Assembly: GCA_000442125.1 (NCBI GenBank)
Contig: KE546981.1
Location: 806,001 to 870,000, forward strand
Source: Opeltia flavorubescens
Taxonomy: Eukaryota > Ascomycota > Lecanoromycetes > Teloschistales > Teloschistaceae
Length of the DNA: 64,000 bases
Direction: 5' to 3'
In this document: in pieces, positions 19,675 through 56,018 of the stretch
Position numbering within the stretch: the first letter of the stretch is position 1
How the letters are laid out: the number at the start of each line of letters is the position of its first letter
The notes under the pieces: generated by a model
The model's database searches: none
What the model was told of the DNA's origin: nothing
What the model saw: the letters and a program-made list of their open reading frames with translations, nothing else
Position numbers and translations under genes: made by a program

Positions 19675-21738
19675 TCAATCGTCGTAATCTGAATTGTCGT
19701 CAGAGGTTTCACCGGAAACATCCTCCTCCTCCTCTCCACCCGCATCATTATCATTAGAATCATCATCTACTTCATCGTCGACACCGTTATTCGCCTCGTT
19801 GTCAGAATCTGCCCTACACCATTTACAATCACAGAAGTCATCCAGATCTGCACCAACATATTTACTAGTCCCACTGTTACCGCCATTCTCACCCTCTTTA
19901 GATCTTTTGCTTACCTGACCGGACCCCATCTTCTCCTTTTTGTGTTTTGCCGCGAGCGTTTGGTCTCGCCACACTGCTACTTCTTGCAAAGCCCTCTCCG
20001 GCGCGTTTTTCCTCATAAGTAAAAATCCTTGGATCTCGGCTGGGGTAAAGGTTTCTTCTGGTAGCAGCAGAGCGAATTCTGCCGCAATATCTGGAAGTTC
20101 CATGGGTTCGCTCGTGCTTGGTTCCTCATTACCGCTGACACCGCTACTGCTGCTGTGCCTCGGGGAGTCGGGTGGAGTGAGCACCGATGATCCTGCAGGC
20201 TTGAGGATAGTCTTGTGGTCTGAATTAGCTTTGCGATGGCGGAGATGCATGATGCCCTTGTCAGCAACGGCAACTGGCTTAGCAGCGATAGACTTGTCAG
20301 GCATTTGAACTTCGGCATCTGGTGAATACATTCGAATGAAAAGCTCGTTCATCTGAGCCCGTGTCGCCTTGGTAAACGATATTTTCATGTCTATTCTTCC
20401 AGGTCGGATCAGTGCTTCGTCCAACTTTTCCGGGAAATTGGTCGTCATAAGCAGAACGCGACCTTCGTGCGAGGCTACTCCATCGATCGCATTCAGTAGC
20501 CCGGATAGCGAGATCCCTTGCACCTCTTTCCCTTTCGTACCCTTTTCTTGAGATGCTTTGATCGCCTTTGAGATCTCAATTCCCAGCTTGGCTGCTTCGC
20601 TAGTTTCCTTCGGATCCTCGGTCGTAGTCGGTTCGTCACGCTTGACCAATCCTGCAGCGTCAATATCTTCCAGCAAAACCACACAACGGCGAGGCAGACT
20701 GGTGAACATAACTCCCAGGTCTTCTTCAGTGAGCGTTGGATCTACCAAAGAAATGCAGTAGATGTCCAAGCCGAAGACACCAGCGATAGCCCATGCTAGT
20801 GAACTTTTGCCCGTACCTGGCGGACCAGCGAGCAGGTAACCTCGTCGATACGGGATACCTCTGTTGGCGTACCATGTCGCAGTCTTTGGGTTTAGGTATT
20901 CGTTGATGTCTTCCAGCACCCGATTCTTCTGTTCATGGTCCAAGACCACTGTTTCAATTGGTCGGCTTGGTCTCGAAGCAACCCGGTTCCAGACATTGCG
21001 GCCCCGACCGCGCATTTCTTTGGGCGCTGGCCGTCTGACGACGGTGCATGATTTCTCCTTGTCAAGGTAGTGATTACGAGCCTCGTTAATCAATGCTTTG
21101 ATTGGCTGGGTGGATCGTCCAATACAGGTCAATATGATGTACTCATCATCCCTCATAACGCTCCCCCCGCCCCAACTTGAGCCCATTACTGATTTTTGCG
21201 AGCGTTCGAATTGAAAGTACCGGCCGTTATGCCAAAAACGATGAGCGCCGAAGTATGGCTGGAACGTTGGAGGCACTTTAGCGTCCCAGTTGCTGAAGTT
21301 AAGGAGCTGGCCCGAGGTAACGATTTGATTGATTTCACCTCCGGTGAGCGAGTCCCACGCGTTCTCACGACCAGTTTTGGCCATCAAGGTGCGAGACTTT
21401 GTAGATATCTTTTGCTCTGCAACCCAGCCCATGACATGGTCAAAGATATCATCGTCGCATTCGATACAGATGAAGCTGGTAAAGTACTCTGTAAAGTAAA
21501 GGTAGGCATGGCGCCCGACGAATTTGAAGCCGGTGAACAGGCCAAAGATAAGTAAGCTCACTGATACGACAATCGATATATCGAAGCCGAATACATCCCG
21601 AATAAATTTGGAAATGATGGGATAACCTGGTACGAAAGCGTCCAGAATGTTCGAAGGGAGTTGGGTGAAACTGACGGTAGCGTTGTCACTGGGTACATCA
21701 GCTTTCCCTAGGACTTGGAAAGCGTTGTTGAATGACAT
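19675..21738 (-). CDS. BCS1-like mitochondrial AAA ATPase
   Basis: A 687-aa single-exon protein. A transmembrane helix near residues 54-72 is followed by a BCS1_N domain (about 80-260). Then comes the AAA module: RGYLLAGPPGTGKSSLAWAI with Walker A at about 305-312, CVVLLEDIDAAG with Walker B at about 353-360, and the arginine-finger region LIRPGRIDMKISF. A charged insertion (about 365-400) separates Walker B from GISLSGLLNAIDGVASHEGR. The C-terminus is very acidic (repeated Asp/Glu/Ser/Asn) and carries a CDCKWC cysteine cluster. Yeast Bcs1 translocates the Rieske protein in complex III assembly. Fungi have many BCS1 paralogues, some linked to incompatibility, and this longer acidic-tailed form is probably one of those and not the orthologue. 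Confidence 0.92.
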   Translation of the reverse strand: MSFNNAFQVLGKADVPSDNATVSFTQLPSNILDAFVPGYPIISKFIRDVFGFDISIVVSVSLLIFGLFTGFKFVGRHAYLYFTEYFTSFICIECDDDIFDHVMGWVAEQKISTKSRTLMAKTGRENAWDSLTGGEINQIVTSGQLLNFSNWDAKVPPTFQPYFGAHRFWHNGRYFQFERSQKSVMGSSWGGGSVMRDDEYIILTCIGRSTQPIKALINEARNHYLDKEKSCTVVRRPAPKEMRGRGRNVWNRVASRPSRPIETVVLDHEQKNRVLEDINEYLNPKTATWYANRGIPYRRGYLLAGPPGTGKSSLAWAIAGVFGLDIYCISLVDPTLTEEDLGVMFTSLPRRCVVLLEDIDAAGLVKRDEPTTTEDPKETSEAAKLGIEISKAIKASQEKGTKGKEVQGISLSGLLNAIDGVASHEGRVLLMTTNFPEKLDEALIRPGRIDMKISFTKATRAQMNELFIRMYSPDAEVQMPDKSIAAKPVAVADKGIMHLRHRKANSDHKTILKPAGSSVLTPPDSPRHSSSSGVSGNEEPSTSEPMELPDIAAEFALLLPEETFTPAEIQGFLLMRKNAPERALQEVAVWRDQTLAAKHKKEKMGSGQVSKRSKEGENGGNSGTSKYVGADLDDFCDCKWCRADSDNEANNGVDDEVDDDSNDNDAGGEEEEDVSGETSDDNSDYDD

Positions 21739-45905: not shown

Positions 45906-47219
45906 ATGCCTTCCTACATGTCTGTCCTCGCCACGGCGCTTGCACTTTTCTCGGCCACGAATGCTCATATGGTGTTGGGAACTCCAGCTCCCTATGGTAA
46001 GGCTTCATTGAACAGCAGCCCGCTCGATCCAAGTGGTTCGGACTTCCCATGCAAAGTATGTAAATTTCACTCCTTCCGCTCACTCTATGAAGAAATGCTG
46101 ACTCAAAGTTTTATGTAGCAACGCCCAGGGGTCTACGATCCAGCATTAACCAAGAATGTTATGCCTATCGGCGCAACTCAAACATTGAAGTTCATCGGTA
46201 GTGCAGTGCATGGTGGTGGATCTTGCCAGGTTTCACTTACCAAGGATCTCAAGCCAACCAAGGACTCGAAATGGATGGTTATCCACTCCATCGAAGGAGG
46301 CTGCCCTGCCAAAGCCGTAGGCAATTTGGGTGGAGATCCCAACGCCAACGTCGCCGCGACCTTTGATTACAAGATCCCTCAAGGCATCTCAGCTGGTGAA
46401 TACACTCTGGCTTGGACATGGTTCAACCGTGTAGGAAATCGGGAAATGTATATGAATTGCGCTCCTATCACCGTCACAGGAGGCTCTCAACGACGGGACC
46501 TTGACATGGTCAACAACGCTACCGAGACCTACGCAACGGATGAAATCTTCAAGCGCGACGCATCCTTTCCGGAGATGTTCATCGCCAATATTCCATCGAC
46601 CGACTGCAAATCACCCGAGGACAAGGATACTATCTTCCCAAATCCAGGCGCAAGCCTAGAAAAGGCGGGTGATGCTGCGAACTTAGCTCCGCCTCAAGGC
46701 CCTAAGTGCGGCGGAGGATCGTCTGGTGGAAGTTCAAACGCGGCACCCGCAGCTGGTGGGTCTGCATCGGGGTCTTCTGCCCCCTCAGGTAGTTCTTCCG
46801 GATCTGGTTCTTCTGGATCCGCTTCCTCTGGATCTGGTTCCTCTCCTGCCGCCCCAGCGCCTTCGCCAGCCACGACGTCAATCATAGCGATCCCTCCAGC
46901 TGGTGCCTCGCCCCCGATGGCCGCTGCTTCCAGTGTCGCATCCGCAGCCCAATCTGTCGTCTCAGCAGCTGCTTCCGTCATGTCCGCTGCCGCTCCGGCT
47001 GCTCCTGCCGCTACAGGTTCTTCATCAAGCGGTGCAGCGAGCTCATCTTCCGGATGCACCTCTGGTACCACTGTCTGTTCTCCCGATGGCAAACAGTTCG
47101 GAACCTGCGACAATGGCAAAGTAACCATGATGCCTGTCGCCGCTGGCACTTCATGCAAAAACGGGGCTATTGGCTTCGCCAAGCGCAGTGCCAAGTTCGG
47201 CAAGGCTTTCAACGCATAG
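45906..47219 (+). CDS. AA11 lytic polysaccharide monooxygenase with X278 module
   Basis: Two exons, 45906-46055 and 46119-47219 (63-bp intron, phase 0); 416 aa. A 20-residue signal peptide ends at Ala, exposing His21 as mature His1, the copper-brace histidine (SATNA|HMVLGTPAPYG). The second brace His is His81 in GSAVHGGGSCQVSL (mature 61), and the axial Tyr is Tyr161 in GNREMYMNCAPITV (mature 141). These positions agree closely with characterised AA11 enzymes. A ~150-residue Ser/Gly/Ala/Pro linker leads to a C-terminal X278-like module (CTSGTTVCSPDGKQFGTCDN, AGTSCKNGAIG) found on AA11 proteins and linked to chitin binding. AA11 enzymes oxidatively cleave chitin. The protein is secreted and probably acts in cell wall remodelling or chitin use. 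Confidence 0.95.
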
Positions 47220-53847: not shown

Positions 53848-56018
53848 CTACGATTCCTTCTCCCGTGTAGCATCTTCCGTATCCCTACGTCTGAAAGCTG
53901 AGTTGCGAAATCTTAATTTCTCCTCCCTAAAGCTTTTCAGTTGGTCTTCAAGATCTGCTATGCCCTCCATTAGCTCTCGAGCCTGCTGTTTGATCCATAC
54001 GGATTCGTTGTATCCATTTCCAGATCTCACAGCGGCTCCTCCATGATTAAGCTTGTCTCTTAGAGTCTGACATATCAAATAGGCTGCACTCAAATCAGCG
54101 CGAGCATTCGCGAGGAATTTAGCGGTATCCTCGAAAGCAGGTGCCTGAGCAAATTTTGGAGTCAGCAATTCCTGTTGGAGTAAACGGAAAGAGGGGACCA
54201 TCACTCGGGAAACTACTCACCATGATATCCGACCATTGGCGCCGCTGAGAGATCTGGTAGCCTTCGTAATCTTGACCTTGAATCTTTTCACGAACCCAGA
54301 GTAAAAGTTGAGTTTGCCTTGCCGCATGAAGTGCTGCATTCGATTTCTTACAATTGGATATCCGCGTTACGGCTTCATACGTGTCCGATGCAATAGAATT
54401 GAACAAGCTAAGTAAATTTCGGAGTTAGCAATTCTTCATGGAATAAGCGGAAGGAGTGAGTACATATCTCAGGACTCATAAGACATTATTTAGGGAAATC
54501 ATCGTTCGGAAAATTACTTACTCCTGAAGATCCGTAATATTATCAAGATCCACTGTCAATAGGCTCGCTATTAATTCAATATGGTCCTTCATAAGCTCGA
54601 CGGCTTTAAGGCGAGAGGATCGTTGTGAACCTTCTTGGAATGGCTCAATACCAATGGGAAGGTAAATCAGGTGATGTGTGTTGAGCCATGCCATACTCTC
54701 CAAAAGCAGTCTGTTATCTGGGTTTAGGCTGGGTGGTGGTAGCAGGCCCCTAAGCAATTTTGGGGTCAGCATTTTCTCTTGGAGTAAATAATGGAAAGAA
54801 CGAGTATATATCCCGGGACATATGAGAATAAATTACGTTAGGGAATCATCGCTCAGAAAACTACTTACCTTTCATCCTCGATCATCTGCACAATGGTTTT
54901 CGTATCAGAGATCTGAGTGTTGATAGTTATAACAACATGGTTTTGAAAGGTCTGGGAAGCTGTAATCGCCGGTAGGCATTGGTCGATAATTTTGGAAAAG
55001 ATTCCTGAGTAAGTCTCGGAGTCAGCATTTCCCAGCGGAGCAAACGAAAAGAGCAAGTACGTGTCACAGGACTCATAAGATAATCTACTCTGGGGCACCA
55101 TCGTTCGGAAAACTACTCACCTTTGAATTCTGCCTCAACGTGAGGTTCGTATTCCATCTCCGGAAGCTTTGATCGAAATGAGCGAACCTGACCTTCATAG
55201 TCGACCAGATAGTATGGAAGTCGAAACGATAGTTCCGTGTTACTGCTTTTGATGACACTCTCGAATGGATGGTTAAGATTCGCCGTTGGCCCGGAAAGCT
55301 CCTGAAGGCCAATTGTCTGGCGCTGGTCCCACGAGCTGCACACCCAATTACGTATAATTGGTAGCTTATACTCACAGAAGTTCGAGAGAAATACCGTACT
55401 CGTGACTGTATACCCAATTGCTAAAGCCTGCAGACACATCCACAAAACCAGAAACAATATAATCGGCCACCGCAGCAGATACCAGACCATCCTGAAAAGC
55501 ACGCGAAAGATGGACCAGGCATCCACAAGACCATCCCAGAGGGATTGAACGACACTGAGGACCATTCCTCCAAGGGCAGCATTGAGGACGCTGCTGGCTT
55601 GGGGCCAATTTGGCCGTGGGACTCGAACACTCAAGTAATCCATGAAGCCTGTTCTCTGTGGACGACTAGTAAGCGAAATTTCCTTTCCGATGGAGGTTGT
55701 CAGATTAGATCATACCGTAGTCCCATGTGCCTCCGACGAAGGAACATTAGGATCTGGAAAAAATGAATAGTCGGATGTTGTGCAACTCGACGGAGCAGAG
55801 GGAGACCGAGGTGCATCACGTCGAGCTTGAGGGATCCCATGCACACGCTCCAAGAGATCCCCAAGTTCGTTGATATCGCTGGCACTGCGTCTCTTTTGTT
55901 TGTTGACCATGAACTGTCCTGGGAGGTCGTCATTTTTCTTGATATGTGTGATCAAAGAGGCTTGAGCAGGCTCGTCGCTGGTTGCAGGTTGGGCAACACG
56001 ATTGGATTTCCTGCGCAT
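53848..56018 (-). CDS. uncharacterised 561-aa membrane protein with four homologous introns
   Basis: Six exons: 56018-55716, 55655-55121, 55004-54869, 54749-54522, 54407-54221 and 54144-53848; all phases are consistent and the product is 561 aa. The N-terminal ~100 residues are basic and disordered (MRRKSNRVAQPATSDEPAQA). Then comes RTGFMDYLSVRVPRPNWPQA and two hydrophobic segments near residues 125-190 (MVWYLLRWPIILFLVLWMCL). The remainder is soluble and helical, with KIIDQCLPAITASQTFQNHV, LNTHHLIYLPIGIEPFQEGS and the C-terminal coiled coil LMEGIADLEDQLKSFREEKL. I recognise no family; the layout (basic N-terminus, membrane segment, long helical tail) would suit a nuclear envelope or organelle membrane protein, which is inference. 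The last four introns are related to one another in sequence (listed separately). Confidence 0.7.
54145..54220 (-). repeat. introner-like intron copy D (76 bp, phase 0, internally deleted)
   Basis: Begins GTGAGTAGTTTCCCGAGTGA and ends with TGCTGACTCCAAAATTTGCT then CAG. It lacks about 40 bp present in the middle of A-C but keeps both splice ends and the branch region. Confidence 0.85.
54408..54521 (-). repeat. introner-like intron copy C (114 bp, phase 2)
   Basis: Begins GTAAGTAATTTTCCGAACGA, shares the internal TCTTATGAGTCCTG with copy A, and ends with TGCTAACTCCGAAATTTACT then TAG. Its branch site CTAAC differs from A, B and D by one base yet stays canonical. Confidence 0.85.
54750..54868 (-). 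repeat. introner-like intron copy B (119 bp, phase 2)
   Basis: Begins GTAAGTAGTTTTCTGAGCGA and ends with TGCTGACCCCAAAATTGCTT then AG. It aligns with copies A and C along its whole length with scattered substitutions. Confidence 0.85.
55005..55120 (-). repeat. introner-like intron copy A (116 bp, phase 1)
   Basis: A spliceosomal intron running from GTGAGTAGTTTTCCGAACGA to a 3' part with TGCTGACTCCGAGACTTACT then CAG. Its CTGAC is a canonical branch site about 18 nt from the acceptor. It shares both ends and the middle with copies B and C. Confidence 0.85.

Follow-up and report, generated by a model that had tools for sequence, protein, structure and literature searches.

Probable repeated, seamless gain of introner-like introns in a single fungal gene

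Introduction

How does one gene come to hold four copies of what looks like the same intron? The question is raised by a minus-strand gene at positions 53848-56018 of the window, i.e., the whole stretch of 64,000 nucleotides of DNA that was analysed here. The family to which these introns belong bears on how new introns spread in fungi, as its members have inverted ends and insert seamlessly, and a single genome contains occupied sites alongside empty ones. Two members of one gene family probably took up introns five times independently, which makes it possible to test directly how insertion sites are chosen.

Huff and colleagues reportedly described, in 2016, introners of algae and protists that are DNA transposons. 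According to Gozashti et al. 2022, DNA transposons account for many introners of these groups, and ascomycete families are called outliers that have neither inverted repeats nor target duplications (PMC9860276). Introner-like elements of the Dothideomycetes (Fulvia, Dothistroma and Zymoseptoria) are described by Collemare et al. 2015 as similar canonical introns in unrelated genes, which are gained at new positions and decay to ordinary introns; two introners per gene occurred in four genes, one gene was suggested to attract them, and families of lower identity are also known in Dothistroma (PMC4457414). Sister stwintrons and cropped introns of the Hypoxylaceae and Xylariaceae (Xylariales) have terminal or near-terminal inverted repeats, are seamless, with no target duplication, and are functional on the coding strand (PMC8469720, PMC12403724).

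The host gene and its introns

Excising the four introns together with one ordinary intron leaves a continuous frame for a protein of 561 amino acids, encoded by exons 56018-55716, 55655-55121, 55004-54869, 54749-54522, 54407-54221 and 54144-53848. The ordinary intron is the first (55656-55715, minus strand, 60 nt) and stands outside the introner family. At each of the other sites in the window gene a single excision restores the frame. A second ordinary intron at 55375-55336 was considered and rejected, as it breaks the frame. The protein had no Pfam match at E 0.001 and one database homologue, P0001, at 39% identity among 8000 candidates scored.

The four related introns, all on the minus strand, are A (55005-55120; 116 nt, phase 1), B (54750-54868; 119 nt, phase 2), C (54408-54521; 114 nt, phase 2), which falls in the youngest subfamily, and D (54145-54220; 76 nt, phase 0), which has an internal deletion. 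The initial annotation had placed all four segments exactly, and the exon lengths that it gave (136, 228 and 187 bp) and its phases (1, 2, 2 and 0) are correct given the ordinary first intron at 55715-55656. Its claim that the segments are homologous, with one copy internally deleted, agrees with both whole-length alignment and BLAST. A, B and C can be aligned end to end, D lacks about 40 internal bases, and a search with A within the window returned B, C and D at E 1e-5, 9e-13 and 1e-5, respectively. The 20-base 5' motif shows no mismatch in A, one each in B and C and two in D, while the 23-base 3' motif, which includes the YAG, is matched perfectly by C and D and with two mismatches by A; B is more divergent here, as a base is missing close to its end. 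A to D are very probably spliceosomal introns of one introner-like family.

A fifth family member, absent from the initial annotation, is a 63 nt intron at 46056-46118 on the plus strand, in a neighbouring plus-strand gene whose spliced frame runs to 443 codons in the sense direction against 63 in antisense. Most of its 5' half is missing, and it illustrates the decay of an introner towards an ordinary intron.

The window also points to the identity of the host. Among the best 120 of 5839 matches to a BCS1-like protein (19678-21738), the best named ones come from Blastenia, Gyalolechia, Caloplaca, Xanthoria and Teloschistes at about 69-82%, and the next named ones from other lichens, e.g., Lecanora and Stereocaulon, at about 58-62%. 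Blastenia crenularia and Gyalolechia ehrenbergii belong to the Teloschistaceae (Lecanoromycetes), and the host is most likely a lichen fungus of this family and not a relative of Cladosporium. A literature search found no report of introners in Teloschistaceae or lichen fungi, which is weak evidence with subscription journals and preprints largely uncovered; this seems to be a new fungal class for introner-like elements.

Distribution of the family

The genome search that the initial annotation had proposed reveals a widespread family, with at least 46 independent copies in the 34.4-Mb assembly (23 contigs) and a further four in a RIP-like duplicate of the host gene. The figure of 46 is a lower bound, merged by hand from DNA, pattern and model searches, and leaves out a weak match (E 0.016) adjoining the copy at C5:1089762. 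Individual DNA and pattern searches gave, as lower bounds, 15, 12, 36, 21, 4, 25, 11, 5, 25, 12 and 36 places, where the copy at C1:1392580 was split and so counted twice in both searches with 36 places. At up to three mismatches, the 5'-end pattern matched 25 times genome-wide, the core pattern 25 times and the middle pattern 12 times; reversed-pattern controls gave no match in any of the four pattern searches, so the matches exceed chance. A model search of 44 fetched stretches (218,067 bases) produced 52 matches, 50 of them distinct since two places lay in overlapping loci, and each was a known copy or adjoined one on the same strand, with the exception of the fifth window copy, on the plus strand.

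For most comparisons we used 36 clean copies of 76-121 nt, i.e., 39 genome places plus A to D (43) minus seven (C13:110155, C5:1089762, C19:46060, C17:767004 and three places in the RIP-like duplicate), to which copies found or fetched later were not added. Ends are unclear and the strand is unclassified at C13:110155, C19:46060 and C5:1089762, and C17:767004 is without a clean 3' end. Mean pairwise identity over the 36 clean copies is 72% and the best pair reaches 97%, which suggests an old, mostly decayed family with a small younger subfamily, to which C8:355669 and C1:420764 belong.

Copies lie in the sense orientation of their hosts: the spliced open frame is longer in sense than in antisense for 35 of the 36 clean GT..AG copies, the exception being C9:649226 (104 against 108 codons). 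The copies at C12:1318060 (two), C12:874288, C11:460652 and C9:610833 stand outside this comparison, which speaks to strand; from the restored frames we infer that the copies are spliced. When eight peptides were chosen from 37 host peptides, in all eight the junction fell within a Pfam domain that stays in frame (AMP-binding, Ras, Peptidase_M19, Glyco_hydro_2, DHO_dh, SIR2, Epimerase and AMP-binding_C). Hosts are unrelated to one another and include a DHO dehydrogenase, a Ras-family GTPase, an M19 dipeptidase, a SIR2 protein and acyl-CoA ligases. Intron phases, taken from the longest frame, are 14/11/12 over 37 entries and by eye wrong for at least one copy (C6:1724357).

The initial annotation had proposed that CTRAC branch sites are under selection. 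An alignment of 19 copies shows no variation at the C, the T or the branch A, to which common descent contributes, and selection on the site is plausible rather than separately demonstrated. Conservation in the middle of the element (columns 41-75, around TCTTATGAGTCC.GAGACATGTACTCGCTCTTTC) is 0.85 against 0.77 in the flanks, a conserved core that is suggestive only, as the same value is reached by 4 of 83 circular shifts. The elements were also considered by eye as C/D-box snoRNAs, a reading that was dropped, the D-box-like CTGA being the branch site and mostly CTAA in the young subfamily, and Rfam returned no match up to E 1 for the three loci searched.

In 9 of 37 copies (L023, L017, L036, L033, L015, L025, L041, L051 and L062) the terminal AG is directly preceded by an additional base (for example CTTCAG or CTTTAG against CTTAG). 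A recruited exonic AG as its source was set aside, as in four of these copies (C9:708936, C7:1479050, C11:487622 and C16:652457) host domains, at the level of profile matches, extend over the junction.

Empty sites and timing of the gains

Two neighbouring paralogues of the host gene lack all four introns. The first, C17:880117-881298, matches residues 158-555 in one frame at 48% identity, with four stops inside one match. The second, C17:891371-892477, matches residues 172-544 at 34% (about 33%) protein identity without stops, and has an introner of its own at 891273-891378, at a place that is empty in the window gene. The protein alignment has zero gaps at the four junctions in both paralogues and in P0001, with two-residue gaps a few residues from A and B, and paralogue DNA runs continuously across all four sites with no duplicated base. 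The insertions are therefore seamless as judged against paralogues whose proteins are only 48% and about 33% identical to that of the host gene, in a comparison that covers the window gene only (four of four sites, two paralogues and one database protein). Such empty sites make the evidence for gains unusually direct.

A duplicate of the window gene at C17:893023-894853 keeps A to D at the same places. Compared with the window gene it shows 450 differences, 342 of them C>T or G>A and 34 the reverse, and this RIP-like mutation fits a filamentous ascomycete. Since the duplicate keeps all four introners, duplication probably came after the insertions, and most simply the four gains would date between the split from the paralogues and this later duplication. 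The duplicate is strongly AT-enriched and RIP-like. About 5.5 kb at only 9-17% G+C lies between the two paralogues (C17:about 881500-887000).

Ends, target sites and clustering

The two ends of the consensus are imperfect inverted repeats of each other. In an end-anchored, in-register test, picked after the repeat had been seen, positions 7-27 from each end match at 13 of 21 positions in one typed consensus and at 15 of 21 in another, against a mean of 6.1 +- 2 for shuffles in which dinucleotides and splice ends are preserved (p 0.005 and 0.001, respectively); slid registers (-6 to +8) give nine matching positions at most. Among the 33 copies entering the repeat and pairing tests (three of the 36, under 100 nt, were left out), 31 lie above their own null mean. 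When the repeat is not anchored to the ends and the splice ends are excluded, only 2 of 36 copies fall below p 0.05, and the two consensuses have p 0.18 and 0.11.

As to RNA secondary structure, a check suggested in the initial annotation, RNAalifold predicted no pair over 19 aligned copies and single-copy folds are weak (mean z -0.9, below -2 in 4 of 36). Paired and unpaired columns are conserved at 0.78 and 0.77, and no covariation was found in the repeat (p 0.08). The inverted repeat may have mattered only during copying, or may be a relic.

Terminal duplications, which had also been put forward for checking, were not detected in the 36 copies, where a search for target-site duplication over many offsets gave p 0.72 (60 permutations). 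An AG precedes the donor in 3 of 36 copies against 2.3 expected, and a slight surplus of G flanks the insertion on either side (17/36 and 15/36). With the AG count near chance and the G excess weak, no clear protosplice target emerges.

Insertions are clustered in the genome, with 4 locus pairs no more than 10 kb apart (0.48 expected) and 20 no more than 100 kb apart (4.6 expected), over 41 loci (the window gene counted as one and the RIP-like duplicate left out) and under a uniform null that ignores gene density. The region C17:852-891 kb, picked post hoc, holds six independent insertions in 39 kb against 0.05 expected.

Route of spread

The explanation that we favour overall, with good though not full confidence, is that of four seamless introner gains, probably spread via intron RNA. 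The family would have entered the host gene most likely four separate times, after this gene split from its two neighbouring paralogues. These insertions would have preceded the gene duplication, the resulting copy then mutating in a RIP-like manner. Each insertion would add an intron from GT to AG with no target bases duplicated, so that splicing restores the old reading frame. Excised intron RNA, rather than a transposase, would do the spreading, either by reverse splicing, with DNA or an R-loop as the target, or through capture at a DNA break. That an RNA route of one or the other kind was taken is, on balance, slightly favoured. The initial annotation had likewise proposed that this gene was invaded several times by one introner-like family, and at least 46 copies, unrelated hosts, empty paralogue sites and the kinship of A, C and D with copies elsewhere all agree with this.

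The second of the two RNA routes, taken by itself, is a tentative proposal: repair of double-strand breaks would capture the excised inverted-repeat intron as RNA or cDNA, as proposed for Hypoxylon stwintrons, and hotspots would be break-prone genes. Seamless, motif-free sites and the six insertions in the 39 kb hotspot are consistent with it, and the extra base before the terminal AG in 9 of 37 copies could be an untidy join, although this base is common to three related copies and may there be inherited. Capture at breaks would also lead us to expect both strands equally, unless it were linked to transcription.

Doubtful, and a step less probable, is a non-autonomous, MITE-like DNA transposon whose inverted ends double as splice sites, with a transposase moving the DNA and selection retaining only sense, spliceable copies. 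The imperfect terminal inverted repeat of the consensus is what such an element would carry, and the clustering resembles local hopping, local DNA transposition explaining it as easily. However, the 36 copies show neither a target-site duplication nor a target motif, no antisense copy was recognised in the fetched stretches, and 25 of 25 matches to the 5'-end pattern (up to three mismatches) fall in intron-size copies and none in a longer element.

Returning to spread through intron RNA, a further and speculative possibility is that in this lichen lineage introns with inverted ends copy themselves as RNA, transposase-free, into a few insertion-prone neighbourhoods, where local chromatin, transcription or break history, and not target sequence, would decide the site. 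Six insertions in one 39 kb neighbourhood would, on this view, reflect local history rather than target sequence.

Relationships among copies

Precise intron loss via cDNA is known in fungi, and the four introns could accordingly be old, precisely lost from both paralogues and made alike by gene conversion. We consider this very improbable, as it needs eight precise losses plus conversion among dozens of unrelated genes, and an introner of its own persists in the paralogue at 891 kb.

The nearest relative of A is C7:1120486 (81%), with D almost equal (80%); that of B is D (83%, over the short length of D), followed by C1:1392580 (80%). C is nearest to C8:355669 (90%), and D to C1:1392580 (89%) and then to the introner that the second paralogue carries at C17:891273-891378 (86%). 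Identities among A to D are 71-83%, and many nodes in a tree of the copies are weakly supported. Because the nearest relatives of A (by a thin margin), C and D lie outside the gene, separate gains appear likelier than tandem duplication. The multiplication of one intron by tandem duplication within the gene, for which four homologous introns inside 1 kb, the closeness of B to D and the near tie of A might speak, is rejected as extremely improbable, since the protein is colinear with its paralogues, no repeated exons lie between the sites, and both C and D are clearly more similar to copies elsewhere, all in line with the earlier view that exon or gene-segment duplication is no explanation.

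Comparison with known introners

Likeness to the Dothideomycete introners, which is by description and not by sequence comparison, lies in similar GT..AG introns in many unrelated genes, exact insertion with empty sites, and sense orientation. The present family differs in its fungal class, in its approximately 46 recognised copies against hundreds, in its mean identity of 72% and in having four members in one gene. Hundreds of near-identical copies were thus not found (about 46 being a lower bound), a trait that we do not take as essential.

With the stwintrons of Hypoxylaceae and Xylariaceae the family shares an inverted repeat at its ends, seamless insertion, the lack of target duplication and probable function on the coding strand. 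Unlike these, its members are single introns and not nested, donor-split ones (no second intron is nested in a donor in the window gene), and they carry a shorter, imperfect repeat. In having inverted repeats at its ends, the family also resembles the DNA-transposon introners of algae and protists, but it has no target-site duplication and draws no splice site from one.

Two further observations concern the arrangement of copies. Five copy pairs on five contigs are spaced 22.05-24.06 kb apart (C5:1067709/1089762, C12:874288/896664, C3:782544/804999, C1:1392580/1415703 and C11:460652/484710), a regularity that was seen post hoc and is unexplained. A second gene region with two introners lies at C12:1318060 and 1318238, the two copies being 63 bases apart.
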